A DNA stretch of 64,000 nt. It comes from Lepiota brunneoincarnata (lineage: Eukaryota; Basidiomycota; Agaricomycetes; Agaricales; Agaricaceae). Below are positions 36,787 to 64,000 of this stretch, piece after piece. A model generated the notes under the pieces. The model saw only the letters and a program-made list of their open reading frames with translations. It was not told where the DNA came from and made no database searches. Both the position numbers and the translations under genes were made by a program. Positions within the stretch are counted from its first letter, which is position 1; each line of letters opens with the position of its first letter. Location of the stretch: NCBI GenBank assembly GCA_023014365.1, contig JAEBUN010000025.1, forward strand, positions 1 to 64,000, given 5' to 3'.

Positions 36787-39700
36787 ATGACCTCCACCCA
36801 GCGTGTTGTTGTGTGTGCCTCAGCAGCAGCCATGACCACTCACGGATTACCCGCGATGCCCGACCCCTTTGTACCCCTGGTCAATCCACCAGCATCGAAC
36901 TCCGAACCGACCATTCCCACCACCGTTAATCTAACCGATACCGTATCAAAGATTGCAAAGGAGGTCGGTGAACTGTTCAAGGATTTACCATATGTGAAAG
37001 CATTTGCGGGAATCTTGCTTCAAATTATCAAGATCAGAGAGGTGCACAAACTTACTGGAAATCGAAGGTTCATCTAACAACAGAACAGGAAATCCAAACC
37101 GAAAAAGATCGGTCTCAGGAACTCATCGAGAAGATACTGGGCAGGTCAAAGGTCATCCTCTATGGCCTGCGCCAAGTCGCCGCATCACCGAACAGGAATC
37201 AGCTGAAGGACACAGAGGAGGAATTAAGAGAGTACAACCGGTAATACCACACGAGCTCTCTTTTCCTCTTTGTGGATTGCTGATCCAACACTCAGTCTCC
37301 TTGAAGGATTCTACGACACACTCTCGACAGAGGCGCCAAAAGGCGTGCGGGGGAGGCTTGACAAGTGGATAAATCGGAATTCGAGGATCGAGAATCTGGC
37401 CAAGTATGACCGTCTCATCGATAGCGTCCACGCGAATCTCAACGTATGTTCGGAAACCATATTCATACCGCTTGCTCTCATTTGATCTCCACAGACCGGA
37501 CTCCTCCTCAAGCTCATCAATCCACCTCAATCTACTCAGGCATCTTCAAGTCCGGCCAGGTACGACAAACCCCATTCTATCCCTATCCGCCATCCTGATC
37601 CTTGCCTCCTCTATTCAGTACTCTCTACAAGCCCATCCCTCGTCCCGATCAGATGATTGGGAGAGACGAAGAGAAATCCACGGTCATTGGAACGTTGCTT
37701 AACGATCCATCGCCGCGGGTCGCAATCTTGGGAGCCGGCGGGATGGGTAAAACGACACTCGCTCTAACTGCCATACACGACCGTGAAGTGGTTCAGAGAT
37801 ACCCTTCGCGGTACTTTGTCTCCTGCGAGACAATCACGTCGTTATCTGGCCTGATTTGGGACATTGCTAATGCGCTGCGCATCCCACCTCCAGAACGCAG
37901 TGAAAGCTTGATTGACATTGTTCTATCTCGGTTTCATGGAAGTACCATCCTATGCTTGGACAATTTCGAGACCATTTGGGAGGACGAGGCGATCCGACGG
38001 GACATAGAGGACTTCTTATCCCACCTCGATTGTGTACCCGAACTCGCAATTATTATGACCTTGCGCGGTACACAGCGCCCTTCTGGAGCTGCCTGGTCCC
38101 AGCCTTTACTCCCACCCTTGAAGGAGCTGAACGACAGTGACGCAAAGCTGATATTTCAAAAGTCTCGAGTGCTGGTGGACGAATTCACCGAAAAATTGGT
38201 TCGAGTCGCCAATGGAATACCTCTGGCCATTAACCTCATCATTTCCCAATTGCAAGAAGGGAACGAGAGGCCCGAATTGCTGTGGGCGCGATGGGAGCGG
38301 ACGCAGACAAGGGCCATAGGGACGGGTACCAAGCATCGCTTATCCAATCTCGACGCGTCTATTCACCTGTCGGTGCACAGCCCACGTATGCAGGCAGACC
38401 CAAACGCTATCCTGACTTTTGCCATGCTATCGAGCCTTCCGGATGGGTTCCCGTGCCGACAGGAGGCCATTGATGAACTCCAAAGCCACTTACCAGCAAC
38501 GATCCGACTTCAGGAGATATTAGTGTCCCTACAACGGGTATCACTCATCTACGTCGATGGAACTGAGGGAAACCTCAGATATCGGATGCTTGTGCCGATC
38601 CGGGAGTTTGGCATGAAGATGGAGATGGATCGTCCGCTCGATAGCTGCTTAGGTGCCTTCTACGCCAAGATGATGAATCATTTTGCGGATTATGCAGATC
38701 CCTCTGGTGCATTTATATGGGAAATCCCACTTCGGAGATCATCGAACTGGCACTACAACAGAAGGTGGTTGGGTCATCAAGCTTACATGCACGATGTATT
38801 TCAGCCTTGTCGTGTGTATATTTGCGACAGAATAAGCTGGACGAGGCGGAGTTGGCTTTCAAAAAAGCAATGGAGCTTCACCAGAAGTCACATTCTGTGG
38901 TTGGTGAGGCCAACGATGTCCAGAGGTTGGGAGAAGTGTATTTTCGGCGGGATAAGCTAGACGAAGCTGAGTTGGCTCTCAAGAAAGCAATGGAGCTTCA
39001 CAAGCAGTCGTGGGATGTGCTTGGTGAGGCCAACGATGTCCACAGGCTCGGAGATGTGTATTTTCGACGGGATAGGCTAGATGAAGCCGAGGTGGCTTTC
39101 AAGAAAGCGATGGAGCTTCACCAACAGTCGCATTCTGTGCTTGGTGAGGCCAACGACGTCCACAAGCTGGGAGATGTGTATTTCCGACGGGATAGGCTAG
39201 ACGAAGCAGAGTTGGCTTTCAAGAAGGCGATGGAGCTTCACCAACAGTTGCATGACATGCTTGGTGAGGCCAACGATGTGCACAAGCTGGGCGATGTGTA
39301 TTTTCAACGGGATAGGCTAGATGAAGCCGAGGTGGCTTTCAGGAAAGCGATGGAGCTTCACCAACAGTCGCATGACGTGCTTGGTGAGGCCAACGATGTC
39401 CCCAAGCTGGGAGATGTGCATTTTCGACGGGATAAGCTAGATGAAGCCGAGTTGGCTTTCAAAAAAGCGATAGAGCTTCACCAACAGTCGCATGACGTGC
39501 TTGGTGAGGCCAACGATGTCCCCAAGCTGGGAGATGTGTATTTTCGACGGGATAGGCTAGATGAAGCTGAGTTGGCTTTCAAGAAAGCAATGGAGCTTCA
39601 CCAACAGTCGCATAATGTGCTTGGTGAGGCCAATGATGTCCACAGGCTGGGACAAGTGTATTTTCAATGGGATAGGCTAGATGAAGCCGAGTTGACTTTC

Positions 39701-40051
39701 AAGAAAGCGATGGAGCTTCACCAACAGTCGCATAATGTGCTTGGTGAGGCCAACGATGTCCACAGGCTGGGAGAAGTGTATTTGCGACGGGATAAGCTAG
39801 ATGAAGCTGAGTCGGCTTTCAAGAAAGCAATGAAGCTTCACCAACAGTCACATTCTGTGCTTGGTGAGGGAAATGATGTCCAGATGCTGGGACAAGTGTA
39901 TTTGCAATGGGATAAATTGGACAAAGCTGAGCAATATTTGGACCAAGCTCTCCTCCTTCACCATCAATGCCAATCATCACAGGGTGAAACTACAGACTTG
40001 AAGTTGCTTGAATGTGTTCAGAAGTGCAGGGAAATGCTATTCACAACATAA
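36787..40051 (+). CDS. NLR: HeLo-like N-domain, NB-ARC, TPR (apparent frameshift before the TPRs)
   Basis: Exons 36787-37041, 37089-37240, 37296-37443, 37495-37559 and 37619 onward join in phase. The N-terminal about 200 residues form a helical bundle (VGELFKDLPYVKAFAGILLQ, IREEIQTEKDRSQELIEKIL, KWINRNSRIENLAKYDRLI) like the HeLo/MLKL-type adaptor or cell-death domains of basidiomycete NLRs. NB-ARC follows: P-loop GAGGMGKTTLA, Walker B ILCLDNFETIW, RNBS-B-like IIMTLRGTQRP and GIPLAINLI. The NB-ARC frame (ending ...YADPSGAF) and the TPR frame (NPTSEIIELALQQ) differ by one base near 38,700-38,760, and about 60 residues usual between them are missing, so the gene may be inactive or carry an unseen intron. 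Fungal NLRs act in non-self recognition and programmed cell death. Confidence 0.75.
38817..40011 (+). repeat. Ten tandem 120-bp (40-aa) TPR-coding repeats
   Basis: The repeats are exactly in register every 120 nt, with units of the form YFRRDRLDEAELAFKKAM / ELHQQSHDVLGEANDV / HKLGDV. Units 2-8 are nearly identical at DNA level; variation concentrates at a few codons (RR/QR/QW, DR/DK, SHS/SHD/SHN, HK/HR/PK). The last unit is diverged. Such high internal identity in fungal NLRs is associated with copy-number change and concerted evolution, which can alter ligand specificity. Confidence 0.95.
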
Positions 40052-47806: not shown

Positions 47807-48066
47807 TGAAAAGGTAGAAACTTTTGTAGGTTTTAATATAGATAGTGGGCTTGTTTTCACTAAGCTTAGCCGCAATTCGATAAGCTTAAGATAATACAAG
47901 TGGAATGAGATAGATAATGAACAGTTTCGTCTTTTAGGGTGTTCTGGGGGTGTGTTCTGACAGCGAAATTCAAGAGAGTAGTGTTTTTAGAGGTTAACAA
48001 ACAGCCGTTGAAGTTATCTTAGCCGTACGGTGCAACAATGAAAGGACAATCCCTGTCAATTCAAAG

Positions 48067-48184
48067 CACTGGGTCTCTGGTCTCTGGTCTCTGGTCTCTG
48101 AACTCTGGTCTCTGTCTCTGTCTCTGTCTCTAGCACTCTGGAACTCTAAACTCTGAACTCTGGTCTCTGTCTCTGTCTCTGGGT
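48067..48184. repeat. CTCTGG/GTCTCT minisatellite within the LTR
   Basis: Short tandem GGTCTCT and CTCTGT units lie inside the LTR. The inverse array (GAGACAGAGACCAGA type) is at about 54408-54517 in the plus LTR, with nearly the same unit order, so the array predates the divergence of the two elements. Confidence 0.85.
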
Positions 48185-48919
48185 TGGTCGACGACCGAAG
48201 GAATCACACTTAACAATGCACACTAAATAGCCCTCTGAAACTGTTCTTGATCACAGCTCACAGACTTGCATGTGGAAGCGGGGGTGAGACCTCTTGCTTC
48301 TCCACAAACAAGTGTGACCGTATTTATATTGTTTAGATACATACAAGAGATAGTAAATATGAAATAGAAAACAATAAGCTTAATTGTTACAGGCACTGTA
48401 GAACATTTTGGAAGGTTCGGCAGTATTTCTACCTCACCCTGGGTTATGGGTTTTTCTCTGATTAACAAATGGCAATCCAGCCAGACGTGTTCCATGCTTG
48501 TCTGCATTATTCTGCATCCATGCGAGCGCGTTAAGTTTCTGGATCAATTATGATCGGAATGTATAGCGGATGGACAATCCCTTGATCCATGGTAATTAAT
48601 CTCAGTTAAGCAGAATGCCGAAGTGCCGGGACCCACAAAGCACTCGTTAATTAGGAGTCTTTGATATTTCTAGGGTTTTGGACATTGGGTATTGCCTCCC
48701 GAATGTTGGACGTTCCGTTCCGTGGTCCGGTCATCATTATTGAACTTGCTATAGATGTAATACGCCTGCGACAGCCACTAGGTACATTCTTTTATGTTCA
48801 AACGCATTCGGGTTCATCAGAAAACTGCTTGTAAGGTCCCTTGATGCAACCGGGGTATACTCAATAGGCTATGTAGAGTCCTGAATCCCTCTGGAGAGCG
48901 CTCTGATAGCTTGGTTCAC

Positions 48920-49580
48920 TGTCATATCCATGCCAACTCAGAGTCTAATCATTTAAACTTCGGCTTCTCGACTCCACGTGTGTTCCACACAACAACCCTC
49001 TGCCCTCCAACTCGGCCCCGACCTGCTCCGACCGCAACCCCCTGCCCCGATCACGCGACCACCTCCACACGTGCTGTGGTCACCTGGCCCTCGGTGTCTC
49101 ATACCCCCGTCTCCATTTCCCGTCCGTAGTCAAGATATGTTATTAGTCTCCATACCTGTACCCGTTTCCATTCCATTCGTAATCCGTTCGTAATCCGTTT
49201 GTAACTAGATCGGTCTCCGCTCCGCTCCGCACGTAGTCAGTACGAGTCATAGTTCATAAGGCCAGTAGTATATATACCGTAGGTACTTGGCTTGTACTCC
49301 TCAGTCTGATAATCGAATCGAGCAGCGGACCAGCTCCCTGTTCTCTACCCTCTCCTCTCTTCTGCCTCGTTCCGCTTCGGCCCCGATTTCCTGAAATACG
49401 GACTAGGACAGTAGGAGGGCACAGCACATACGCTGAGGCCGCAAGTCCAACCCCCCGCCCGACGTACTCCGCCTCGGTCCCGAAGTCTACGTACTGACTT
49501 CGCCCTGTCCCCCGGTTACCTTATATCAAGGATACCACCCCGACCCTCCGCTTCGGTCCCGACCCGCACCGGCTCTAACA
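48920..49580. mobile_element. Solo LTR, 661 bp, 5-bp target duplication TTCAC
   Basis: It interrupts the Gypsy LTR between ...GCTTGGTTCAC and TTCACTAAGCTTAG; the uninterrupted sequence is GCTTGGTTCACTAAGC in the other LTR copy. The insert begins TGTCATATCC and ends GGCTCTAACA, with TTCAC at 48915-48919 and 49581-49585. A TATATATA box is near 49268. It has no coding capacity and lacks the TAAGCTTA motif abundant in the host element, so it belongs to another family. Confidence 0.9.
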
Positions 49581-50100
49581 TTCACTAAGCTTAGTGATAA
49601 TGAGCTGATTTGAACACTTCTGAGGCTCGAATATCCTCAGTTCAGTTGAACTGGCTACTACGGGATATAGTACCAATCCTCTATAGAGTTCTTTAATGAT
49701 ATAGCCAATGATTCTATGTAGAGAATTGTTCCGGAGTACGGAATTCATGTATAGGCGTGAAATCGGCATATCATCTCCCCCTAACCAAATTGCTGACTGT
49801 CCTCAGTCATTATCTCCTTCAAATTCGCAGTATCTGAGTCTCTCTGACGCACTCTACAGTCTAGAACATTCACCAGCTTTGAGGGTAGCACACTTTCGCT
49901 AAGCTTATTTCAGAATGATGTCATGTCACCGAGTTTAAATGTATAGATCAACTTCTTGTTGCTATAGCTTAAATTTTTATCTCATTATTGGGTCTTTTAA
50001 ATGTCCCAAGGTCTCGTTTCATCTCTTTCGTTCTCCCTCTCACTTCTTACTCGTCTATCCTGCTCGCATATTCACTTTTCAATGCCCACTTCTATCAACA

Positions 50101-51329
50101 ATGGACAGAAACACACGCAGCAGCAAATGTGCTTGCTACGAGGAGGACTTGGACTCTTCTTCCAGTAAGTAGAGTTCAAGTTACAGTTTTCTCTGTCCTC
50201 TTAACACTGTTTTCAGGCTACCCTGGGCCGAGCAACGCCTCAACGGCTTCCCAAGGCACGCCTTCATCATCAATCGCGCAACGTAAGTCACGTTTTCCCC
50301 TGTTCTCATTGTCTTTACTTATGTTTTCTCTACTTTTAGGTCTCACTATTCGCCTCCCGGCGCGTCGCAACCTCCTACCTCAATGGGAACCACCAGCACT
50401 GCATACTAGGAGAGCTAGAGGTGGGCAAGGAGCTTGAGGAGCTCGCGGAAATTGTCAGGTGGGTGTGGCAAGGACCCCTCCTCCACCGTACTCTCCGCCT
50501 CATGCACCAACTCCTCCGCTGGCCTCTCCCTTGTCCGCTCCAGTGCCAAGACACATGATTTCCATTGCGTCGTTGTGCAATCCAACCGACGAGCACTTTG
50601 CTGGATTTTCCGCAGAACCCTTGTCAGGTATCCCCATTGGTGGGCCCTCTGGTGGATTGTCCACAGAGGCCTTGTCAAGTTTAATGTCGCTGCCCCCTCT
50701 TGCCGTCTCTCTGCACTCCCTTGATGGTGAAGGCTTGCTGGTGCTCCCTCCCCTGGGTATTGCATCAGGTTCAGAGGTGCCAGGCCCTTCAACAAACCGC
50801 CCCTCCTCTCCCGTAGCCTCTTTGACTGTTTCAACGCGTAAGCTTAGTCTTTTACAAGGTATATTTGTCCTTTCTGCTAACTTCCACTTTAGCGCATATC
50901 CCAGCTGCCCTTAAAGGCAAACAGAAGGCAAAACCATCGATGCCGCCCCCTACGCCTCTATTCTTGGTGAATTCAAACTTGCCATCACGTTCTCCAGTCC
51001 CTGAGGTCTCTCAAGCCGACCTCTTTAAAATCTTTAGCTGGTCCTTGTCTCTGGATGGGCAACATGTGCTGGCTTTGCCTAGGTGCCCAACACCATCACC
51101 ACCTCACTTAGCTGGCACTCCAGTCAAGTCTCCCGCAAATGCTGTGGAGATTTCTCCTTCTCCAGATTTGGAGCTCCTACTGGAGCCTTCGCCTGCCCCT
51201 CAAGAACCGACTTTTGTTTTTCAAGACGCGTTCTTAGCTTCTCTGACCCCCGTCCTTTCTTGTTTGCCTAGCCCAGTGGTTCCAGAGATCCCTCAAGAGT
51301 CCCCTCATGCTGGGCTTCGTCCAGCTTAA
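50101..51329 (+). CDS. Intron-bearing Ser/Pro-rich gene antisense to the minus Gypsy element
   Basis: Plus-strand exon-like stretches occur here. The first starts MDRNTRSSKCACYEEDL and joins through GTAAGT..TTTTCAG (50166-50216) and GTAAGTC..TTTTAG to further short exons. A long Pro/Ser-rich exon (about 50459-50838) joins through an intron starting GTAAGCTTAG and ending CTTTAG to HIPAALKGKQKAKPS...PEIPQESPHAGLRPA. The last codon's TAA overlaps TAAGCTTA at 51327. The frame between exons 3 and 4 is not resolved. No known domain is seen. It occupies the place where RT-integrase should be and looks captured or rearranged; it is not similar to the antisense gene of the plus element. Confidence 0.45.
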
Positions 51330-51786
51330 GCTTATGCTCCTCCATATATCTGCCTGTCGGGACAAACTCTGGAGGATGCACGCTAAGCTCAGGCATTTCT
51401 GCCAGTGGGTCCCCTTTTATTTCTCGTTTTATCCTGAATCTCTCCGGTAGATCACCCAACACTGGCCTCACTTTTAAGGCTACTGGTTTATATTTCTTCC
51501 CAGCCAGGCATTGTACCGTATCTTCGTCATCTTCTTCTGTTTCGAAGACAGTTATTCCCTGGTCCTCTGTGCCCTGCACGTTGGCTATGTGTCCTAGGCA
51601 CAATAACGCTGTCGCTTTATCTTCTTGTGGACAGTCCTCATCGTGTATGACTCGGTCAATGAACATTAGCTGTAGCTCGGCCTCTGAGAAGCTTCCTTTT
51701 GCTAAGCTTAGTGTTTGTGCGATGACAGGGCCCTTCTCATCATCATAGTCTATTATACAAGCCACCTCTCCTTGTCCCTCAGTCAA
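51325..51786 (-). pseudogene. N-terminal fragment of Gypsy RT polyprotein
   Basis: This matches the first 150 or so codons of the plus-element pol frame (TEGQGEVACIIDYDDEKGP..., RPVLGDLPERFRIKREIKGD..., KLKLDEA). Similarity ends exactly after KLKLDEA, within a TAAGCTTA motif, so the deletion or rearrangement breakpoint lies at about 51325. The catalytic palm domain is absent. Confidence 0.85.
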
Positions 51787-52820
51787 CTCATTGAGGTTTC
51801 TTGAAAATTTTGACTGTTTTCCCTAAGCTTAGGAGGATTACACTCTCCTCGAGCATAAGTTGGTAACACAGCCCTTTCTCTGGTATTTGGGTCCATAATA
51901 ACCAAGGTTTGCTTGCCACTGGTGCTATTCCTGACTTTGCTAGCCATCATTACATCAAAGGGTTGTCCCAGGAGTACTCGATACGCGGGGCTACGAACGA
52001 TGTGAACTTGCAAATAGATTGTGACTCCCCCACAGGTAAAGCCTACGTTCTTTGCCAATCCACAAGTCTTTTCAACCTGCCCATTTGCACTCTGCAAATT
52101 TATCGTAGTATCTGGGTCCCAAGAAACTTGACATGCAATCGCTGCTTCCTGACTCATGGAGATGATCTGTGACCCGCTATCTAGCAAGGCCTCTTCCTGC
52201 CGAATCCCATTTATCAGAGTTGGCACTACTCTCAACGGCTCGCATTCTTTCGCAATAAACACTTGTCGTCCCCTGTCTCTTCGGGGTAGTGACTCCAAGT
52301 ACTGCATGATTGGATCCTGAGCTACCCAGGCTTGGGTTGCCGAGCCTTCTCGGAGCACCATATCATACTTCCAAGGACCGTCTGCTAGCTCCATTATCAT
52401 GACTTGTACTGGCCCACTATTAATCTCTATATCTTCTGTATCATTGTCCCCGGGCCCTACTCCTGCTATTAAGCTTTGACTCGTGGGTACCCATTTTCTC
52501 ATAATTCACTCTCTATAAGTGTTCCTGTATATCGGTGACAATGCCAAGAGTTCTCCATGCGATACTGAGGCTTCTCGCTTCAATACCCTGCTGAGTACTT
52601 CCTCAACATTGACATTCCTCTCTATAGGGGCCTGGTGCTTATATGCAGGCTCCTTCTTGGATGATTCCATCCTTCTGACAGGCAGCGGTGGTACCTCAAC
52701 AACCAGGCGCAGTGGTTTCACATTCTTATATGGTAATTCTCCTGCTGCGGCACGCATGGGTTTCTCCGTTGTCTGCCCTATTTCCTCATTTTCTGATTCT
52801 TCTGATCGCTCGGAATCCAA
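51783..52820 (-). pseudogene. Gypsy protease (retropepsin) region
   Basis: Two frames, 52820-52506 and 52502-51783, are collinear with 56808-57941. A TGA at YRNTYRE splits them where the plus copy has CGC. The retropepsin motif EEALLDSGSQIISMSQ and VLLGQPFDVM are present. This copy keeps CGA where the plus copy has its nonsense TGA (LPRRDRG). The frame ends at the second -1 overlap, with heptamer AAATTTT (complement 51804-51810) conserved. Confidence 0.8.
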
Positions 52821-52891
52821 TGCATCCTCAGGAGTCTGTCCTCTGGCAAAGGCGACCTTCTTCTTCAGAGCCAGCTCCTTCCTCGAACCCT

Positions 52892-53478
52892 TTAGAAACC
52901 CAACTCCGAGTTCCTAGTCTTCGTGCCACTTCTGGTGTCCAAATACTGGCTTGCCAAGGGCGTACCATCCGTCAAACTGCTAAGCTTAGCCTGTATCTGG
53001 GCCAATTGCTCGGCCAAAGACTGTATTTCAACATTATCCTCCTTCCTGGTCATAAGCTTAACCTTTGGGGCACTTCCGGCGTGGATGGCAGCTGTCTCCA
53101 ACATTTCCATGCGCTGCTTCAGACAGCGGACTTCTTCTTCTGCTGGTGACCTTTGGTTTTCTGACCTTGGGAATGCTCTCTGTGCAAACACCGCTGATGT
53201 TGGCACTTGCGGTAACTCAGGCTCAACCTCTGGCAGTTCTGGTATCTGAATGAAGAGTTGTCCCTTTGTTGCATAGTACTTTGCCACTTTCTCTTTAATA
53301 GGCCCTTCTCCTCGAGGGATACTCGAGCCATCTCCCATATATATTTTGTTCCCTTTGACTCTAATTTGGCCAGCTTGTTTATCCGCCTCCATGTCCGGGC
53401 AGAATAACCAACTATGCCCTAATAACCAGCAGTAGAAACACTTGTGGTCAGAAAGCGACCGTGCCGACCCATTTCCGG
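52892..53478 (-). pseudogene. 3' part of Gypsy gag, cut by the plus element
   Basis: The zinc knuckle CFYCWLLGHSWLFC and the following MEADKQAGQIRVKGNKIY...SELGF match 56240-56832. The gag frame ends at TAA directly after GGGTTTC (complement 52895-52901), as in the plus copy. Upstream gag is missing because the plus element's LTR begins at 53479. The five bases before it, TCCGG (53474-53478), are the presumed target duplication. Confidence 0.85.
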
Positions 53479-54780
53479 TGATACGCCGATTTCACGCCTA
53501 TACATGAATTCCGTACTCCGGAACGATTCTCTACATAGAATCATTGGCTATATCATTAAAGAACTCTATAGAGGATTGGTACTATATCCCGTAGTAGCCA
53601 GTTCGACCGAACTGAGGATATTCGAGCCTCGGAAGTGTTCAAACCAGCTCATTATCACTAAGCTTAGTGAACCAAGCTATCAGAACGCTCTCCGGAGGGA
53701 TTCAGGACTCTACATAGCCTATCGAGTATACCCCAGTCGCATCCAGGGACCTTACGAGCAGTTTTCTGATGAACCCGAATGCGTTTGAACATAAAAGAAT
53801 GTACCTAGCGGCTGTCGCAGGCGTATTACGTCTATAGCGAGTTCAATAATGATGACCGGACCACGGAACGGAACGTCCAACGTTCGGGAGGCAATACCCG
53901 ATGCCCAAAACCCTAGAAACATCAAAGACTCCTAATTAACGAGTGCTTTGTGGGTCCCGGCACTTCGGCATTCTGCTTAACTGAGATTAATTACAACGGA
54001 TCAAGGGATTGTCCATCCGCTATACATTCCGATCATAATTGATCCGGAAACTTAACGCGCTCGCATGGACGCAGAATAATGCAGCCGAGCACGGAGCACG
54101 TCTGGCTGGATTGCCATTCGTTAATCAGAGAAAAACCCATAACCCAGGGTGAGGTAGAAATGCTGCCGAACCTTCCAAAATGTTCTACAGTGCCTGTAAC
54201 AATTAAGCTTATTGTTTTCTATTTCATATTTACTATCTCTCGTATGTATCTAAACAATATAAATACGGTCGCACTTGTTCGTGGAGAAGAAAGAGGTCTC
54301 ACCCCCGCTTCCACACGCAAGTCTGCGAGCCGTGATCAAGAACGGTTTCAGAGGGCTATTTAGTGTGCGTCGTTAAGTGTGATTTCTTCGGTCGTCGACC
54401 AACCCAGGGACAGAGACAGAGACCAGAGTTCAGAGTTTAGAGTTCCAGAGTGCTAGAGACAGAGACAGAGACAGAGACCAGAGTTCAGAGACCAGAGACC
54501 AGAGACCAGAGACCCAGCGCTTTGAATTGACAGGGATTGTCCTTTCATTGTTGCACCGTACGGCTAAGATAACTTCAACGGCTGTTCGTTAACCTCTAAA
54601 AAACACTACTCTCTTGAATTTCGCTGTCAGAACGCACCCCCAGAACACCCTAAAAGACGAAACTGTTCATTATCTATCTCATTCCACTTGTATTAGCTTA
54701 AGCTTATCGAATAGCGGCTAAGCTTAGTGAAAACGAGCCCCTTATCTATATTAAAACCTAAGAAAGTTTCTACCTTTTCA
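53479..54780 (+). repeat. 5' LTR of the plus Gypsy element (1,302 bp)
   Basis: It begins TGATACGCCGATTTC and ends CTACCTTTTCA. The TATAAATA box is at 54259-54266. Four TAAGCTTA palindromes (53659, 54204, 54699, 54719) and a CAGAGAC-type minisatellite lie inside. It is collinear in reverse with 49773-47807. Two bases after the LTR, TGGAGCCCACCGCGAGG (54783-54799) is the likely tRNA primer-binding site, since it starts TGG, the complement of a tRNA CCA end. Confidence 0.9.
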
Positions 54781-55347
54781 TCTGGAGCCCACCGCGAGGG
54801 GGGTTTTCAGTTGAATTTCACGAGCCAAACACCAAAAAGACTTGGACACTGGCCCGCCTTTCACCTGCGAAGCAGAAAAAGGTTCAAGCAAAGACCGTAA
54901 AGTCACCCAAAACGTCCTTCGAGAACAGTCTCAGGAAGGTCGACCCCCCAAAACAGAGAACTACTCGGAATTCCAATCGTCCAGAAGGTTCTGAAGGCCT
55001 CATCGCCGCTAGTACCTCTCGAAAGCGAAAAGATCCCTGTTAACTCTCTAGCTGCGAACACAGCGAGTGGTTCAGCAGTTGCAGTATCGAGAGAAGTCGC
55101 ACCGCCGACCTCTACTGCTCCCAGAATTACACTAAGGCTTCCAGCCTCAGCTCGCAACATAGCGCATATTCTGCGCACTGAAAGCCAGGACGGCCAGACC
55201 GTTCCTACGCTAAGCTTAGCGGTTACAAACCAAAACTCGTTTCATACGAACCCTCCTGGTGCCTCTACAGTACCACAGATATCACAGTCAACTCCGACTG
55301 TACAGACAAACCAAACTACGCCGTCTACGACGACTACAGCTAGAAAA

Positions 55348-56832
55348 ATGGGACACGAGCGTATGCCAATTCCCTTTAGCAATAATGCTCCCAGATGGGA
55401 TGCATCAAAACCACAGACATTGAGAAATTATCTCTGGACGCTTGAATGGCTCTTCACGATAACGAAGACGACGGACAATGCAGAAAGGATAAATTGGGCA
55501 GTGTCATATGTGGACCAGGATATCCGTGAAGAGTGGATGAGTTTTGCGGAGTTCCCAGCAGGAAGCTGGACAGGCTTCGTAGAGAGATTGAAGAAAGAGT
55601 ATCCCGAGACTGTGGCAGCCGAGCAGGGCTCAGTGCGACGATTGAGGGAACTCTGCACAGAGAGTAGAGGCATTGCAATGAATGAGGAGCATAGAGTCTT
55701 AGACTTCAAAAGGCGATTCATCCTAGAAGCAGAGAAGTGCCTGAAGTCGCCGGCGGTAGTCTCGAACCGAGAGCTAGTCGAGTTATTTACGAGCGCACTG
55801 GACTCCGTGTTCCAGGACGTACTCAATGCGAGATTAGCGATCACCGGGGCGCGTAGAACCGCGAGCGATGGGTCGGCACTAACTGCGAAGGATTTACGCG
55901 AAGAGGACCCCTATGATTGGAGGATCGTCGTGGATAAAGCCAGTCGAAAATTTCGATTGGCAAAACACTTATGCGATCCCTTCATCAGGATTCAAGGCCG
56001 GTGAACTCGGCATCAATGAGCCATCCACCTGCGACGTCCAGGAACAGGGACTTATGACCCTGTAGTAAAGCGAGAGCTGCAAAGCTTAAAACAGAAGTTT
56101 CAGGATGAAGTCTCGCAGATGGCAGGCGGTCTCGCTGAGCTTAAGGACCTCATGAATATCCAGGGGCATACCTTAAAATCATACTTAGAGAGTTTGGCGA
56201 AAGAAGGACATAATCATGCCGGTTATAATCACGCTCAGAGGAATACCGGAAGTGGGTCGGCAGGGTCGCTTTCCGATCGCAAGTGTTTCTACTGCTGGTT
56301 ATTAGGGCATAGTTGGTTATTCTGCCCGGACATGGAGGCGGATAAACAAGCTGGCCGGATTAGAGTCGAAGGGAACAAAATATATATGGGAGATGGCTCG
56401 AGTATCCCTCGAGGAGAAGGGCCTATTAAAGAGAAAGTGGCAAAGTACTATGCGACAAAGGGACAACTCTTCGTTCAGATACCAGAACTGCCAGAGGTTG
56501 AGCCTGAGTTACCGCAAGTGCCAACGTCAGCGGTGTTTGCACAGAGAGCGTTCCCGAGGTCAGAAAACCAAAGGTCACCAGCGGAAGAAGAAGTCCGCCG
56601 TCTGAAGCAGCGCATGGAAATGTTAGAGACAGTTGCCATCCACGCCGGGAGTGCCCCAAAGGTTAAGCTTATGACCAGAAAGGATGATAATGTCGAGATA
56701 CAGTCTTTGGCCGAGCAATTGGCCCAGATACAGGCTAAGCTTAGTGGTTTGACGGATGGTACGCCCTCGGCAAGCCAGTATTTGGACACCAGGAGTGGCG
56801 CGAAGACTTGGAACTCGGAGTCGGGTTTCTAA
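55348..56832 (+). pseudogene. Gypsy Gag (capsid and zinc knuckle)
   Basis: The capsid part (55348-56004) reads RWDASKPQTLRNYLWTLEWL, VSYVDQDIREEWMSFAEFP and FVERLKKEYPETVAAEQGS, typical of Gypsy retrotransposon Gag. Two TGA codons (56002 and 56017) then interrupt the same frame, which continues through KRELQSLKQKFQDEV to a CCHC knuckle (CFYCWLLGHSWLFC) and a coiled coil (EEEVRRLKQRMEMLE). The TGAs fit CGA-to-TGA transitions. The frame closes with TAA at 56830. No start upstream of 55348 is obvious, although sequence from 54,800 encodes a basic Ser-rich region and may belong to Gag. Confidence 0.8.
56823..56829 (+). promoter_or_regulatory. Putative -1 frameshift heptamer GGGTTTC (gag/PR)
   Basis: G GGT TTC in the gag frame fits the X XXY YYZ slippery pattern and is followed immediately by the gag stop TAA. 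Slipping gives GFLKGSRKEP in the protease frame. Heptamer, stop and overlap are conserved in the minus copy (52892-52901). A downstream RNA structure was not assessed. Confidence 0.6.
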
Positions 56833-57913
56833 AGGGTTCGAGGAAGGAGCCGGCTCTGAAGAAGAAGGTCGCCTTCGCCAGAGGACAGACTCCTGAGGAC
56901 GCGTCGGATTCCGAGCGATCAGAAGAATCAGAAAATGAGGAAATAGGGCAGACAACGGAGAAACCAATGCGTGCCGCAGCAGGAGAATTACCATATAGAA
57001 ATGTGAAACCACTGCGCCCGGTCGTTGAGGTACCACCACTACCTGTCAGAAGGATGGAACCATCCAAGAAGGAGCCTGTGTATAAGCACCAGGCCCCTAT
57101 AGAGAGGAATGTCGATGTTGAGGAAGTACTCAGCAGGGTATTGAAGCGAGAAGCCTCAGTATCGCATGGAGAACTCTTGGCCTTGTCACCGATATACAGG
57201 AATGCTTATAGAGAGCGCATTATGAGAAAACGGGTACCCACGAGTCAAAGCTTAATAGCAGGAGTAGGGCCCGGGGACGATGATACAGAAGATATAGAGA
57301 TTAATAGTGGGCCAGTACAAGTCATGATAACGGAGTTGGCAGACAGCTCTCGGAAGTATGATACGGTGCTCCGAGAAGGCTCGGCAACCCAAGCCTGGGT
57401 AGCTCAGGATCCAATTATGCAGTACTTGGAGTCACTGCCCTGAAGAGACAGGGGACGGCAAGTGTTTATTGCGAAAGAATGTGAGCCGTTGAGAGTAGTG
57501 CCAACTCTGATAAATGGGATTCGGCAGGAAGAGGCCTTGCTAGATAGCGGGTCACAGATCGTCTCCATGAGTCAGGAAGCGGCGATTGCATGTCAAGTTT
57601 CTTGGGACCCAGATACTACGATAAATTTGCAGAGTGCGAATGGGCAGGTTGAAAAGACTTGTGGATTGGCAAAGAACGTAGGCTTTACCTGCGGGGGAGT
57701 CACAATCTATTTGCAAGTTCACATCGTTCGTAGCCCCGCGTATCGAGTACTCCTGGGACGACCCTTTGATGTAATGACGGCTAGCGAAGTCAGGAATAGC
57801 GCCAGTGGCGAGCAAACCTTGGTTATTACGGACCCAAATACCAGAGAAAGGGCTGTGTTACCAACTTATGCTCGAGGAGAGTGTAATCCTCCTAAGCTTA
57901 GGGAAAACAGTCA

Positions 57914-57920
57914 AAATTTT
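57914..57920 (+). promoter_or_regulatory. Putative -1 frameshift heptamer AAATTTT (PR/pol)
   Basis: A AAT TTT in the protease frame fits X XXY YYZ; the protease stop TGA is 18 nt further on. Slipping gives NFSRNLDELTEGQGEV in the pol frame without an intervening stop. It is conserved in the minus copy (51804-51810). It is one of two such sites in the same element. Confidence 0.6.
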
Positions 57921-57937
57921 CAAGAAACCTCGATGAG

Positions 57938-60900
57938 TTGACTGAGGGACAAGGAGAGGTGGCTTGTATAATAGACTATGATGATGAGAAGGGCCCTGTC
58001 GTCGCACAAACACTAAGCTTAGCAAAAGGAAGCTTCTCAGAGGCCGAGCTACAGCTAATGTTCATTGACCGAGTCATACGCGATGAGGACTGCCCACAGG
58101 AAGATAAAGCAACGGCGTTATTGTGCCTAGGACGCATAGCCAACGCGCAGGGCACAGAGGACCAGGGAATAACTGTCTTCGAAACAGAAGAAGATGACAA
58201 AGATATGGTACACTGCCTGGCTGGGAAGAAATATAAACCAGTAGCCTTAAAAGTGAGGCCAGTGTTGGGTGATCTACCGGAGAGATTCAGGATAAAACGA
58301 GAAATAAAAGGGGACCCACTGGCAGAAATGCCTGAGCTTAGCATGCATCCTCCAGAGTTTGTCCTGACAGGCAGATATACGGAGGAGCGTAAGCTTAAGC
58401 TGGACGAAGCCCATGCAGGGGATTTCTTGTGGCCAGAGGAAAGAAAGCTGATGCACCACATCATGATGCTTCAAGAAAAGGCATTCGCCTGGACAGATGA
58501 GGAAAAGGGATGTTTTAGGGAAGATTTCTTCCCGCCGATCGAGATACCGACGGTAGAACATACTCCGTGGGTTGAGAAACCCATTCCGATTCCACCAGCG
58601 ATCTATGATGAAGTTTGTGCCATTATAAAGAGAAAGATTAGTGCTGGTGTATACGAGCCGTCGAACTCATCCTATAGATCCAGATGGTTCTGTGTGGTGA
58701 AAAAAGATGGGAAAAGTTTGAGACTGGTACACAGCTTGGAACCGCTGAACAAAGTGATGATAGCGCATTCAGGACTGCCGCCAGCAACGGAAGATTTGGC
58801 AATGCACTTCGCAGGCAGAGCTTGCGGAGGCATTCTGGATCTATATGTTGGCTATGACGAACGACTGTTAGCTGAGTCGTCTCGGGACTTAACAACGTTC
58901 CAGACGCCTTTTGGAGCGCTACGCTTAGTGACGTTACCCATGGGATGGACCAATTCAGTGCCTATATTTCATGAGGATGTAACAGCGATCCTAACCAGTG
59001 AGATACCAGAATACACGATGCCGTACATAGATGATGTACCTATCAGAGGACCCAAAACTAGATATGAGTTGCCAGATGGCACGGAAGAGACGCTGAAAGA
59101 AAACCCAGGGATCCGACGATTTGTATGGGAACACATGCAGACGGTCAATAGGATTCTACAGAGGATGAAATACGTAGGAGGAACCTTCTCTGGGCCCAAG
59201 ACGACTATCTGCGCTGATGAAATCACCGTAGTGGGTTTTGAATGCTCTTATAAAGGACGGTTGCCTGCCACAGACACCATTGGGAAGATATTAAGATGGG
59301 GGGATTGCAAGAATGTCTCCGAGCTAAGGGGTTTTCTAGGAACAGCTACGCGCTGCAGGAATCATATCCCGAAGTTCATAGCCATTGCTGCACCTCTATA
59401 CGAAAAGCTTAAGAAAGGGCAAGAGTTTGAATGGGGAGAAAATGAATGGAAAGCACAGCAGGAGCTGAAAGATGCGATTCAACGCTGTTTCCCGACCAGG
59501 AACCCCGAATTCCCGAGTAAACAACCCATAGTAGTAGCCGTGGATACCTCATGGAGGGCGGTGGGATACTACATATATCAGCGAGATGGAGAAGACGCTA
59601 AGCTTATACATTATGCGAAGTTTGGGTCAATATTGTTGGACGAGAGACAGCAGAGGTATTCTCAGCCCAAGCGAGAGCTATGCGGCTTAAGAATGGTGCT
59701 GGAACAGGAGAAATATTTGTTGTGGGGATCGAGAAATCTAGTAGTGGAAACAGACGCGAAGTTTCTCTTTGGGATGTTAAACAACCCAGGAAAACTCCCG
59801 AACGCTACTGTAAACCGTTGGGTGGACTTCATTAGATCGTTCCACTTCACGCTAGTACACAAAGAAGGAAAGACATTTGGGCCGGATGGACTGTCCAGAC
59901 GACGTTACTATCCCGGTGATGAGACAGCCCGTCGTTTCGACGACGGATCCGAGGACGAGGGAGAGGAGTTCGAGTTGATCAAAGGAGATCCGGGGGCTGC
60001 AGATCCGTTACCCTTGGAAGCCTTCTGTGATGAGATCGACAGTCGCTCTGGCTTCTACCAGGGTCTGGCGCGTGATGTGTATGATTTTGAGTATGAGCTG
60101 GATCAAGCTCGGGAAGAGTACTTGGATGAACAACAGGCTAAGCTTAGGGTTATAGAAGACCCAGCGTGCCCAGAAAACCACCGACAAGTACTAAGCTTAA
60201 TGACGGATGTCAGGCTAGTGCCAGATTTCGAAGAGGAAAAGTTGACCGAGATAGAGGAAGCGTATGATGAATCGCGTAGGACAGATACAGCGCGAATACA
60301 AGACAGAAGAATACCCAAAGTCAGGGAATACCTGAAAACAGGGGGCAGTAGCGCAGCTGAAGGCTTGGATGAGCCGGATCTGCGTAAGCTTAAGCATATG
60401 GTGGAGCATTTCTTCTTGGACGAAGGGGGGAGACTGTATAGGATGAGCCCTAGCGGTCAGCATCAGCTAGTAGTGGATAAGGAGCAACGTATGTATATGT
60501 TGCGAGCCAGCCATGACTTCCTAGGACACAGGGGAATATACGCAACCACTAAGCTTATAACGCAGAGGTTCTGGTGGCCGGAAGTTGAAGGAGACGTAGC
60601 TTGGTATGTGCAATCGTGCCATCTATGCCAGCAACGACAAAAGGCGATCATCGAGACGCCGCCAATAGTAACGCCCACGCCGTCGATATTCCAAGTGCTA
60701 CATGTGGACACACTACATATGACGCCAAGTTCTAATGGGTGTAGTTATATTGTGCATGGAAGGTGTGGCACTGTCGTCCTGGATGGAGGCAAAAGCTTTG
60801 AGAAAAGAGAATGCTAGTTCGATTGCGCAGTGGTTATTTGAAGATATCATTTGCAGATGGGGCTGTATAGTGAAGATTGTCACGGACAACGGTTCTCCAT

Positions 60901-61688
60901 TTAAGAAAGCTGTTCGATGGCTGGAAGAAAAATATGGGATAAAAGGAGTAACGATATCTCCTTACAATTCCAAAGCGAACGGGATTATTGAAAGAGCCCA
61001 CTGGGATGTGCGGCAAATGTTGTACAAAGCTACAGATGGAGATGTCAAAAAGTGGTATTGGCACCTACCGCACGTTATGTGGGCAGATCGGATAACCATT
61101 AGAAAAGGAATGGGGTGTTCCCCGTACTTTCTGGTAACCGGAGCGCACCCGACGCTACCTCTGGATGTCAAAGAGGCCACTTGGCTAGTACAACTACCAA
61201 ATAAGTACTTAACCACGGCCGAGTTGATAGGATACCGAGCTCAGGCTTTGGCAAAACATGTTCGGCATGTTGAGGAGGTGCGTCAGCGTGTTTCAGACAC
61301 TAAGCTTAGCAAGGCTTGGGAGATGGAACGACAAGCAGCGCATAAGATAAAAGATTATCGCTTCGGCCCGGGAGATTTAGTATTAGTGAGAAACACAGCT
61401 ATAGAGAGCTCAGCAGACAGGAAGATGAAACCCAGGTATCTAGGACCCATGGTGGTCATATCTAGATCGAAGGGAGGATCATATATCCTGGCAGAGTTGG
61501 ATGGCTCTGTATGGCAGAATAAAGTGGCGGCGTTCAGAGTAATTCCCTACTTAGCCAGAAAACATATGCCGTTGCCGCTGGAGTTACAAGAGTTGTTAGA
61601 TCTGTCGCCAGAGGGACTGAAGACCCTGGAGGAGACTACTGAGGATGAGCCTAGTGACAGATGGGAGCCAGAAGAGTTGGAGGGATAG
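57938..61688 (+). pseudogene. Gypsy RT-RNase H-integrase
   Basis: RT motifs are intact: AGVYEPSNSSYRSRWFCVVK, GILDLYVGYDERLL, TFQTPFGALRLVTLPMGWTN and catalytic MPYIDDVPIRGP. RNase H has VAVDTSWRAVGYYIYQ, RELCGLRMVLE and VETDAKF. Integrase has an H2C2 finger (HDFLGHRG...CHLCQQRQ), [14 protein letters not shown], then a one-base insertion near 60766. The next frame continues [20 protein letters not shown] and [13 protein letters not shown], and a GPY/F-like C-terminus ([13 protein letters not shown]...[12 protein letters not shown]). No integrase chromodomain follows. KL codon pairs in this frame are often AAG-CTT within TAAGCTTA motifs. Confidence 0.85.
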
Positions 61689-61764
61689 AAAAAACCTGAT
61701 ATTGTGGACAGAACTATCTACTTATCGAAGGAAAACTATCCTGGGGACTGTAAAAGCGTTAAGC

Positions 61765-63111
61765 TTAAGCGGGGGAGGACTTGTCCAAGTCGGAAAGGTT
61801 GCGCAAAAGGCTTTTGAGACGGATGCGCTCTTGAATGAGGAATTGGAACCTTTTTAAGTTGGCTTCGAGCGAGGGAATAGCATCGATGAAGTCCCGGCTG
61901 AGCGAATTGAGGTCGCATTTGACTGACCGAGCGTCGTCACCGCGAGATTCGGATTCGTACTCGTCGCGAGAGTGAGACAGGAGGTTTTGGAGTTCCTGGA
62001 GCAAACGAGCTGCCCGGGAGAAGTGTCAGTACCGTTAAGCTTAGCGAAGAGAAGTGAGAAATTGCCCACCAGATAAGCCCGCAAAGGTGCGCTCATCGGA
62101 AGCAGACTCGGTACGGGCGCGCTTGGCAGTATTGGCGCTGGCTTTGGCTAGAACCTGTTCAGCCCGGACATAACAGCAGTGTTTAGTGTTCATATTGAGA
62201 ACTTGACAATAGGAAAGAAGACGGACGGTGCCTTTAGACGATGAGGACTTTTTGACGGTCTCCTAAAGAGGGAGGAAGTCAGAATCAGTGGTTGGGGGGA
62301 GTGGAGCTGGCGCACCACGTCGGAGGTAGACAAACGACGCTTGCGATAAGGCGAGACTACACGAACCTCTTCGACGATAGCTTGAGAGACCTCCTCATCG
62401 ACCATCATGTCCTGGAGGCGAGCAATTATCTCAGCCAATGTAATAGGTTGAGAAGCAGCTATATTACCGTGTCAGCACCAGTTGCTCGGGAGTTGGAAGC
62501 ACTGGGCATACTCTCAGCAAGCTCGGTATCGGTGTCTACCACAACAGCAGCAGAGACAGGGGCCTTGCGACCTTTGCGAGGCTAAGCTTATACATGAGGA
62601 GACGATTGGAGCCAAAAGAACGCTAAGCTTACGCGTTTGGGGACAGCAGAGCCTTCGGCAACGTTGGAGGAAGTAGAGCCAGTCGTGGACGATGGGTTCT
62701 GAGCCTCTTCGGTCCTGGATTTGTGGGATTCTTCGGAACGAACGCGATTAATGTGGCTACAGCATTCAGAGAGCGCCTTATAGATCGTGGGCATCTCATA
62801 AGATGAATGGTAGTTGTTTTGGTAAATTTCATAGAGCTTGCGGATACGGAAGACGTAGTCCTGGTTGACATGAAGCTTGATAGCCTCATTATCCTCCGAT
62901 AACGCTTCAATATAAGCAGACTAGAAATGATTTGGAAACGGTGAGAGAAGCATGGAAAGAGTAGACATACCCCAGGGGCGTCGAACGCAAGGAGAGCCTT
63001 CTCGACGAGGGGACGAGCGACTTGGCCGTTTTGCAGACGCTGAAGACGACCTTTGGCGTTGCTGATGAGATCGTCGAGCTCAACCTGGAGATGGGGGATA
63101 GAAGAAGCCAT
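61765..63111 (-). CDS. Six-exon antisense gene inside the Gypsy element, unknown function (364 aa)
   Basis: Exons 63111-62971, 62920-62633, 62581-62468, 62429-62316, 62262-62070 and 62009-61765 have GT..AG introns of 50, 51, 38, 53 and 60 nt and keep phase at all five junctions, for 1,095 nt or 364 aa. The protein is charged and mostly helical: MASSIPHLQVELDDLISNAK, DYVFRIRKLYEIYQNNYHSS, a Ser/Thr/Pro linker, EEVRVVSPYRKRRLSTSDVV (possible nuclear signal), ELQNLLSHSRDEYESESRGD and a C-terminal coiled coil (ANLKRFQFLIQERIRLKSLL). I recognise no domain. Lying antisense lets it keep introns through retrotransposition of the sense RNA. It carries TAAGCTTA at both ends of intron 2 and inside intron 5. 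No stops or frame breaks are seen, unlike gag and pol. Confidence 0.7.
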
Positions 63112-63386
63112 TTTCTTGCGAAGGGTGTCTGCTAGAATGAGACGTCGCTCCCTCGCTTTTATAAGAAAAGGCCGTAGGCAGTGATGACGAATCATAACGA
63201 GTGGATGAAGAGCACCCTCCACCCTAAGCTTATGACCTGAGGGGCCTAGGAAACCTGTAATCTTGAGTAGCCAGCCTTCGACAGACTTGCTGAACCACAG
63301 TTGCCTTATTAGGTAACATGTCGCCAGGGTCTCGCGGTTATCAGTGTGCACAGGGATTCTGATGGAACGGTGAGGGCACCGATTTC

Positions 63387-63404: not shown

Positions 63405-64000
63405 TGGGTCCCAAGGGGCGCTTCAGTTTGACAGTTTGACGCGAGCTTTTTCGCGAGGAGCTTTTTCGAACAGCGTGGACAGGCTGGTTCGGGCTTGTAA
63501 GTAAACCGGAGCGGATGAGCCGGGTCACTACGCATTGCGGGTCACGGCGCGCTGAGATGTCAATAAACATCACTGATAGATCAGAGAGGCATATAATGAG
63601 TATATAAGTGACTGGCAACCTAAACTAGCTTAGGAGTCTCCCAGGAGGTCTTTAGCTTAGCTTTAGGAGATGACAAGAAAGTCAAAAACAGTTTAGCTTA
63701 ACTCAGTAGGAGACAAGGAACAACAAGATGACTATTGGGATGTATATACATGACAAGATTATATACTACATCCAAGAAGTAAACTAGGCGCAGAGATCAC
63801 TCAAGGTCTTCTAGAACAGACTCCGGATCCTGAGTCATCAGGAAAGCGAGGAAGAGAAGCGATTTGAGCTCCTCGAATTCCTCGTATGTCGGGACCCCCG
63901 GAAAGTTGTTGGCGAACTCAAAGAACGCCCGAACGTCTTCAAGGGAGTCGGCCATACCCATCTCTACAAAAGCCACATCGTTACCGTCCAAGGCAGTCCT
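63405..64000. other. Unassigned sequence after the polypurine tract, LTR-like start
   Basis: It starts TGGGTCCC and contains a TATATAA box (63600-63606), and TAGCTTA-type repeats at 63630-63700. At the right edge is a minus-strand reading frame (63797 to the window end) encoding an acidic segment with GNDVAFVEMGMADSLEDVRA and EEFEELKSLLFLAFL, open at its 5' end. It could be a different LTR (chimeric element) or another nested insertion. The acidic ORF is unrecognised. Confidence 0.4.

Follow-up and report, generated by a model that had tools for sequence, protein, structure and literature searches.

The VANDAL elements of the plant Arabidopsis, which are DNA transposons of the MULE type, are the closest described parallel to the locus considered here. 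The motifs of VANC21 and VANC6 (YAGTATTAY and AGTTGTCC/AGTTGTAC, respectively) lie in noncoding tandem repeats of the transposon, and methylation is stripped (PMC5735166, PMC10398659). The locus itself is a Ty3/Gypsy retrotransposon family of the fungus Lepiota brunneoincarnata, two copies of which lie in the 64,000-nt stretch analysed (contig JAEBUN010000025.1, positions 1 to 64,000; hereafter the window), and which carries an 8-bp palindrome, TAAGCTTA, dispersed from one long terminal repeat (LTR) to the other. As in VANDAL, a short motif is highly enriched over one family of transposable elements, related families differ and an element-encoded accessory gene stands alongside; the effect of VANC is, moreover, described as covering the whole element. 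The two systems differ, however, in that the present one is a fungal LTR element with reverse transcriptase, RNase H and integrase between its LTRs rather than a MULE transposase, and in that the VANC motifs are asymmetric, noncoding and arranged in tandem, whereas TAAGCTTA is palindromic and singly dispersed, with unrelated flanks and with 11 of the 27 sites of the complete element in gag-pol frames. Furthermore, binding has been demonstrated for VANC, while for TAAGCTTA it is proposed here.

Antisense genes are known from other retroelements. In human T-lymphotropic virus (HTLV), the antisense-encoded HBZ is a basic leucine zipper regulator acting with host factors; the likeness to the present case is that of a regulatory protein encoded antisense by a retroelement, the difference being the basic leucine zipper itself. 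We know of no dispersed cognate palindrome for HBZ, nor of any motif associated with brtn, the antisense gene of the Boty/BcGypsy1 element of Botrytis cinerea. Like the present element, Boty is a Ty3/Gypsy element of a fungus and carries an additional gene, which is antisense to judge by the title cited (Zhao 2011 as cited in PMC7264820, PMC8365987). The plant LTR retrotransposons Grande, RIRE2 and Retand (TRP28) carry antisense additional open reading frames, the roles of which are given as unknown in the accessible text; they share with the element described below an antisense gene between pol and the 3' LTR and a long region between the two, and TRP28 is a predicted DNA binder, but neither a cognate motif nor a Zn2Cys6-like cluster is reported for them in that text (PMC7264820, PMC11963269). 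The literature search yielded no paper on the word TAAGCTTA and nothing apt on fungal antisense or Zn2Cys6 retrotransposon genes or on dispersed palindromes, and in the texts and listings examined no LTR element is described as combining an antisense gene with a dispersed palindrome.

In the window, TAAGCTTA occurs 32 times, always inside 47861-63232, which is the count that a first-pass annotation of this DNA had given, with one coordinate corrected (51703, not 51713). Its claims that this number lies far above chance, that the word is missing elsewhere in the window and that many sites extend to a longer palindrome are all borne out: 100 dinucleotide-preserving shuffles of the window contained 0.61 copies on average and 4 at most; positions 1-47,800, and with them the Copia element, are free of sites, as is an insertion nested at 48921-49580, just outside which lies the nearest site (49586); and 13 of the 32 read CTAAGCTTAG. 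The word is also the commonest palindromic 8-mer of the 47861-63232 region. The 32 sites are not independent events, being held by two copies of one Ty3/Gypsy element: 11 lie in a truncated, internally deleted inverted copy (47807..53479, minus strand) and 21 in a plus-strand element (53480-67797) that runs out of the window and is complete from LTR to LTR, its 3' part having been read from the adjoining 4 kb of contig sequence (L035). In full, the plus-strand element holds 27 sites in 14.3 kb, where a random 8-mer would be expected about 0.2 times; ten of them are CTAAGCTTAG, six lie beyond the window and, as the four sites of the LTR are present twice, they represent 23 distinct positions.

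The word is a perfect palindrome, and its surroundings are symmetric as well, with an outward flanking G at 25 of the 46 half-sites (P 2e-5), that is, C preferred before and G after. Beyond this preference the flanks are unrelated to one another, which suggests that the sites arose separately and not as parts of some longer unit that was repeated. The single-base variants TGAGCTTA and CAAGCTTA are found naturally. Along the plus-strand element the sites number 1.5 to 3.1 per kb, but 0.4 per kb over its antisense gene A (see below), and the spacing does not differ in evenness from random (coefficient of variation 0.92 against 0.95).

The contexts of the sites are varied, as the first-pass annotation had also stated in arguing that coding alone is insufficient to account for them. 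The plus-strand element has four sites in each LTR, one in the leader, 11 in gag-pol frames, four in the antisense gene B, one between genes B and A, one at a splice donor of gene A and one between gene A and the 3' LTR. The 5' LTR sites are at 53659-53666, 54204-54211 and, as a pair, 54699-54706 and 54719-54726, and the leader site, between LTR and gag, is at 55211-55218. In the coding frames the motif is read mostly as Lys-Leu codons and sometimes as Leu-Ser-Leu: VKLM (56664-56671) and AKLS (56736-56743) in the gag region, PKLR (57893-57900) in the protease frame, LSL (58014-58021), RKLK (58390-58397), AKLI (59599-59606), AKLR (60139-60146), LSL (60192-60199), RKLK (60385-60392) and TKLI (60550-60557) in pol, and TKLS (61301-61308) in integrase. 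On the opposite strand, the TAA within the site at 61760-61767 is the stop codon of gene B; the site at 62036-62043 falls in a probable gene B intron with a branch-point-like CTTAAC; a single gene B intron has its 5' splice site (GTAAGC) in the motif at 62624-62631 and its 3' splice site in that at 62583-62590; and the last site in the window, 63225-63232, lies between genes B and A. These apparent fits to stop codon and splice sites show in what variety of contexts the motif seems to have been worked into the element. The inverted copy has LTR sites at 47861-47868, 47881-47888, 48375-48382 and 49586-49593, one upstream of gene A (49900-49907), one at the position homologous to the donor of gene A intron 3 (50839-50846) and others at 51327-51334, 51703-51710, 51824-51831, 52981-52988 and 53053-53060.

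The concentration in this family, likewise claimed at first pass, holds at the scale of the genome (55.6 Mb, 95 contigs), where the word is not equally common throughout: TAAGCTTA occurs 5370 times against 842 for the reversed word, taken as control, and CTAAGCTTAG 2011 times against 39. The 24 one-mismatch neighbours of TAAGCTTA sum to 13,532 against 20,120 for those of the control and are not enriched, therefore the enrichment is limited to the exact word. Random 3-kb stretches agree, since in 14 of them 12 sites were found in the two that match the element and zero in the 12 that do not; the motif is thus confined to the Gypsy family in the samples examined. The LTR pair, TAAGCTTA-N12-TAAGCTTA, is present 550 times.

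How the sites fare among copies could be followed in pol. Out of 1778 candidate relatives in the genome 48 were scored, and 30 gag-pol copies of the 48 listed, including that of the window, were aligned (mean pairwise identity 95.7%). A motif 8-mer survives in 94.8% of ordered copy pairs, against 75.0% for other 8-mers. The possibility raised at first pass, that related copies lack the sites at homologous positions, is not what the alignment shows: the motif is present in 29 or 30 of the 30 copies at 10 of 14 site columns, in 26 and 28 at two and in 12 and 18 at the remaining two, which alternate. At eight of the 14 motif columns all 30 copies agree completely; the same is true of 29% of windows overall. 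The alternating sites, 58333 and 58390, are 57 bp apart: 12 copies have the first, 18 the second and none of the 30 neither, each being lost through a single base change; the window element is of the 58390 type, and the diverged copy L036 has both.

Polymorphism separates the motif further from its surroundings. Variants shared by at least two copies are found at none of the 80 columns of 10 sites, against 9.2 in phase-matched windows (P 5e-5), a count that omits sites 56664 and 56736, where some copies are unaligned; with the alternating pair included, they are found in two of 96 columns. Private mutations in the same 80 columns, 5 against 8.3 expected, are not depleted (P 0.27). Decay at CpG is strong in the family (CpG positions are 9.7% of sites yet hold 148 of 476 singleton transitions among the 30 copies) and the motif is without CpG, so that a CpG-free control was used; in CpG-free phase-matched windows the expectation is 4.4 shared polymorphisms against 0 observed (P 0.015) and 5.7 private ones against 5. 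Most in-frame stops in decayed pol copies are TGA, which is what the change of CGA to TGA at methylated CpG would produce. The absence of shared variants with private ones at the usual rate is the pattern that would be left by constraint while copies are active and neutral decay after landing. Copies at greater distance keep their sites too (each counted once): four of four in L053, at 80% identity, 10 of 13 in L036, at 87%, five of five in L050, 10 of 10 in both L051 and L052 and six of seven in L045, where survival of CpG-free 8-mers is 0.33, 0.50, 0.71, 0.75, 0.72 and 0.74, respectively. In the LTR pair, 550 of 583 instances within one mismatch are exact, against 530 of 583 for the best-conserved CpG-free LTR control (P 0.03). 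On the alignment evidence, then, the motif sites look selected.

Several of the coding sites would be gains of this lineage, as suggested by relatives without the residues that the motif imposes. Eight of the 11 coding sites, those in pol and integrase (gag and protease being left out), were compared with 30 relatives and a sister family. At 58390, RKLK stands where most of the 30 relatives have RK[D/E/A][Q/K] or RMEK, with leucine in 3%; at 58014, LSL stands against mostly LPK, LPV or LPG; at 61301, TKLS against EKxx or GKRE; and none of the relatives compared has the S or the second L of site 60192. The pol and integrase frames contain nine KL[IMTNKSR] words, six of them at motif sites, whereas 120 relatives average 2.4 per 1250 residues (standard deviation 1.2, maximum 5.2) and none shows the imprint. 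In the sister Gypsy family of the same genome (L055, C1:684801-691500), the polymerase of which shares 61% identity across 956 residues, the 6.7 kb examined contain a single TAAGCTTA; the three homologous places that could be aligned are without it, and no other palindrome exceeds the level of shuffles there. A repeat of GTTACCTA in L055, five copies, is near chance by a rough estimate, and the first 2.6 kb past its pol contain short sense open reading frames with hydrophobic stretches, of an envelope-like (env-like) look.

Two antisense genes lie between pol and the 3' LTR region. Gene A, mostly outside the window, is modelled on the minus strand from an ATG at 66171 to a stop at 63797, with six exons and GT-AG introns; its last exon is 64131-63797, of which 63797..64000 is in the window, and exon 5 (64372-64186) encodes C-X2-C-X6-C-X8-C-X2-C-X6-C. 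The Zn2Cys6 spacing is defined as C-X2-C-X6-C-X5-12-C-X2-C-X6-8-C, and the cysteines of gene A agree with this pattern (PF00172). The predicted product, of roughly 580 residues, is an orphan: at the sensitivity used, no relatives were found among 5.8 billion proteins (410 candidates for the C-terminal part, 7989 scored for the N-terminal part). The last two exons have 152 matches in the genome, some copies yielding two. In comparison with L053, dS (synonymous divergence) being 0.71 and 0.99, the ratio of nonsynonymous to synonymous divergence (dN/dS) is 0.31 for exons 1-4 and 0.10 for exons 5-6, so that the protein is under purifying selection; gene A is a conserved gene on the opposite strand between pol and the 3' LTR, as antisense additional reading frames are. 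The window copy is interrupted by a 344-bp insertion (64787-64444) that L053 and L054 are without. Gene B (61760..63111, minus strand), with an ATG at 63111 and several exons, is a model built on alignment with L051, L052 and L036, and Pfam searches gave no confident domain for it.

As to the element as a whole, TG...CA LTRs and the order protease, reverse transcriptase, RNase H and integrase mark it, by its sequence features, as Ty3/Gypsy. The 5' LTR spans 53480..54777 and the 3' LTR 66499-67797, beyond the window; 53479-54777 and 66499-67797 are 98.6% identical. The gag region (55348..56832), named by position, consists of two open reading frames, 55348-56004 and 56119-56832, neither with a Pfam match. 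It is followed by an aspartic protease (57462..57941; PF13975, E 9.7e-9), by reverse transcriptase, RNase H and integrase zinc-binding domains (57938..60817; PF17917, PF17919, PF17921) and by an integrase core (60735..61688; PF00665, E 1.7e-4), the 22.3 bits of which are under the curated cut-off of 32.6. All of these are on the plus strand. The best solved-structure match of pol is that of Ty3 (7q5b, E 3.4e-27); among the matches listed, the named relatives of the polymerase are from Agaricus bisporus, 62-63% identical, and no relatives were confirmed in viral contigs. The plus-strand element is nested in the inverted copy, and the insertion at 48921..49580, in the LTR of the latter, is dissimilar to the element. 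A second over-represented word, CTCTGGTCTC, has five copies per LTR and resembles a local repeat (54419-54511 in the 5' LTR, 67439-67531 in the 3' LTR outside the window, 48075-48167 in the inverted copy). Elsewhere in the window there are tandem coding-like repeats at 38717-40051, in a tetratricopeptide-repeat open reading frame, and, as a second array, at 26142-27912.

The explanation that we favour, tentatively and at somewhat less than even chances, is that TAAGCTTA is a recognition site in double-stranded DNA for a dimeric protein, the best candidate for which would be the product of gene A, acting on silencing or expression. The site would have an 8-bp core with flanks preferring C-TAAGCTTA-G; the family would have gained it at about 23 separate positions and would retain it under selection for the benefit of the element. 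The two-fold symmetry suggests a dimeric binder of duplex DNA, and a perfect palindrome with symmetric flanks in all kinds of sequence of the element points to binding along its whole length. Gene A is the best candidate because of its cysteine cluster, the selection on it and its place in the same element; its protein might act in trans on each copy, coating the entire element. The most plausible effect would be to keep copies expressible, the chromatin being opened or protected from silencing of the CpG-methylation type in a VANC-like manner. The genome has three exon-level matches to DNA-methylase domains, and these, together with the decay by CpG transitions, make silencing by methylation likely and an anti-silencing role sensible. 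In its strongest form, to which we give a slightly lower chance still, the proposal is one of whole-body self-recognition, in which a dimer of an antisense-encoded zinc-cluster protein would bind TAAGCTTA across the element and keep copies active, as an independent and structurally different counterpart of VANC in VANDAL. The VANC-like role had been suggested in the first-pass annotation: what stands of it is a family-concentrated motif beside an antisense gene with Zn2Cys6-like spacing, while the symmetry and the placement of the motif are unlike those of VANC. The sequences establish the motif and its concentration in the family, its conservation, the derived residues at several coding sites and an antisense gene under selection; we infer from them the binding of the motif by a protein, the identity of that protein as the gene A product and an effect on silencing or expression.

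A number of observations weigh against this explanation. The cysteine cluster scores 13.6 bits with Pfam Zn_clus (PF00172), under the cut-off of 21, and is for this reason termed Zn2Cys6-like only; a single-sequence AlphaFold model of it, at pLDDT (the model's per-residue confidence) 57, is unusable. Known Zn2Cys6 proteins mostly read CGG triplets, and TAAGCTTA has none, so that gene A, although alike in cysteine spacing to the fungal transcription factors of this class, differs from them in score, in being encoded by a retrotransposon and in the motif assigned to it. In L053 the cluster has one cysteine changed and the frame is shifted, and this copy may be dead; in the stretch of L036 examined gene A was not found, though motifs are present; and the link between gene A and the motif is co-occurrence in one Gypsy family, for which L055 is no proper contrast, as it ends 2.6 kb past pol with room for the last exon only. 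Among the coding sites, 60550 is not derived, its L and I being found in 70-80% of relatives and TKLI in three of 30. As for selection, the P-values of single diverged copies under the strict CpG-free control are modest (0.01 to 0.43), their combined P of 0.001 presumes independent lineages, which these copies are not, and the LTR-pair test, which barely separates motif from control, carries little weight.

The main rival has the element exploiting a DNA-binding protein of the host (a transcription factor, an insulator or a factor of recombination or replication), the site of which would be the motif, while gene A would serve some other purpose. We regard this as unlikely, if still deserving of serious attention: the palindrome and the selection pattern are silent on who encodes the binder, and the low Pfam score of gene A speaks in favour of a host origin, whereas the word is at about background outside the family (0 in the 12 non-matching random stretches and 0 in window 1-47,800), which would be odd if a host factor had targets of its own, although a few host sites would suffice, and the sites cover coding sequence, LTR and spacer alike and not promoters alone. 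Were the motif instead to act in RNA, through binding of Gag or another protein or through dimerization of the genome by the self-complementary UAAGCUUA, it would be well placed, since all sites would fall in the genomic RNA, with U3 and U5 each counted once, and short palindromic loops do serve dimerization in retroviruses. For a single-stranded word, however, a perfect palindrome would be a 1 in 256 coincidence, and about 20 dimerization sites are more than needed; the hypothesis of an RNA loop was rejected when the accessibility test showed no signal, with predicted unpairing of 0.42 at the sites against 0.48 in controls of the same composition (P 0.20). A role in RNA thus appears improbable.

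A tag for self-targeting or self-recognition by integrase or recombination seems more improbable again. Uptake sequences mark self DNA in this way in Haemophilus and Neisseria, and such a tag might look like the present word, which is short and exact, occurs in coding and noncoding sequence alike and is concentrated in one family, nested copies of which occur, but at both ends of the plus-strand element, nested as it is in the inverted copy, stands CCGG and not the motif, albeit in a single case. A functionless motif, in which a founder element was rich in the word by chance and recent amplification spread it, is already disfavoured and to be given a marginally smaller chance than the tag. It would suit the closeness of the copies compared, the modest conservation P-values left by the strictest controls and the LTR test; it is at odds with the 27 exact copies, where chance would give about 0.2 and where, in 20 shuffles of the element, no gapped palindrome exceeded 5, with flanks that are not shared, hence no longer unit was copied, and with the persistence of sites at 80-87% identity and the missing shared polymorphism. 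Least probable of all is an aid to splicing, by which the antisense genes would draw donors (GTAAGC), acceptors (TTAG) and branch points (CTTAAC) from the motif, for while three introns in the antisense gene models use it as donor, acceptor or branch region, LTRs and sense coding sequence account for 19 of the 27 sites, and a G precedes TAAG at only two of 27, so that most are not donors.

If recognition of TAAGCTTA by an element-encoded dimer is what the pattern reflects, sequence-specific self-recognition of transposons would have arisen in retrotransposons and in fungi as well, by way of a motif strong enough to override the choice of amino acids in pol, and a candidate role would be available for a type of antisense gene that LTR retrotransposons often carry.

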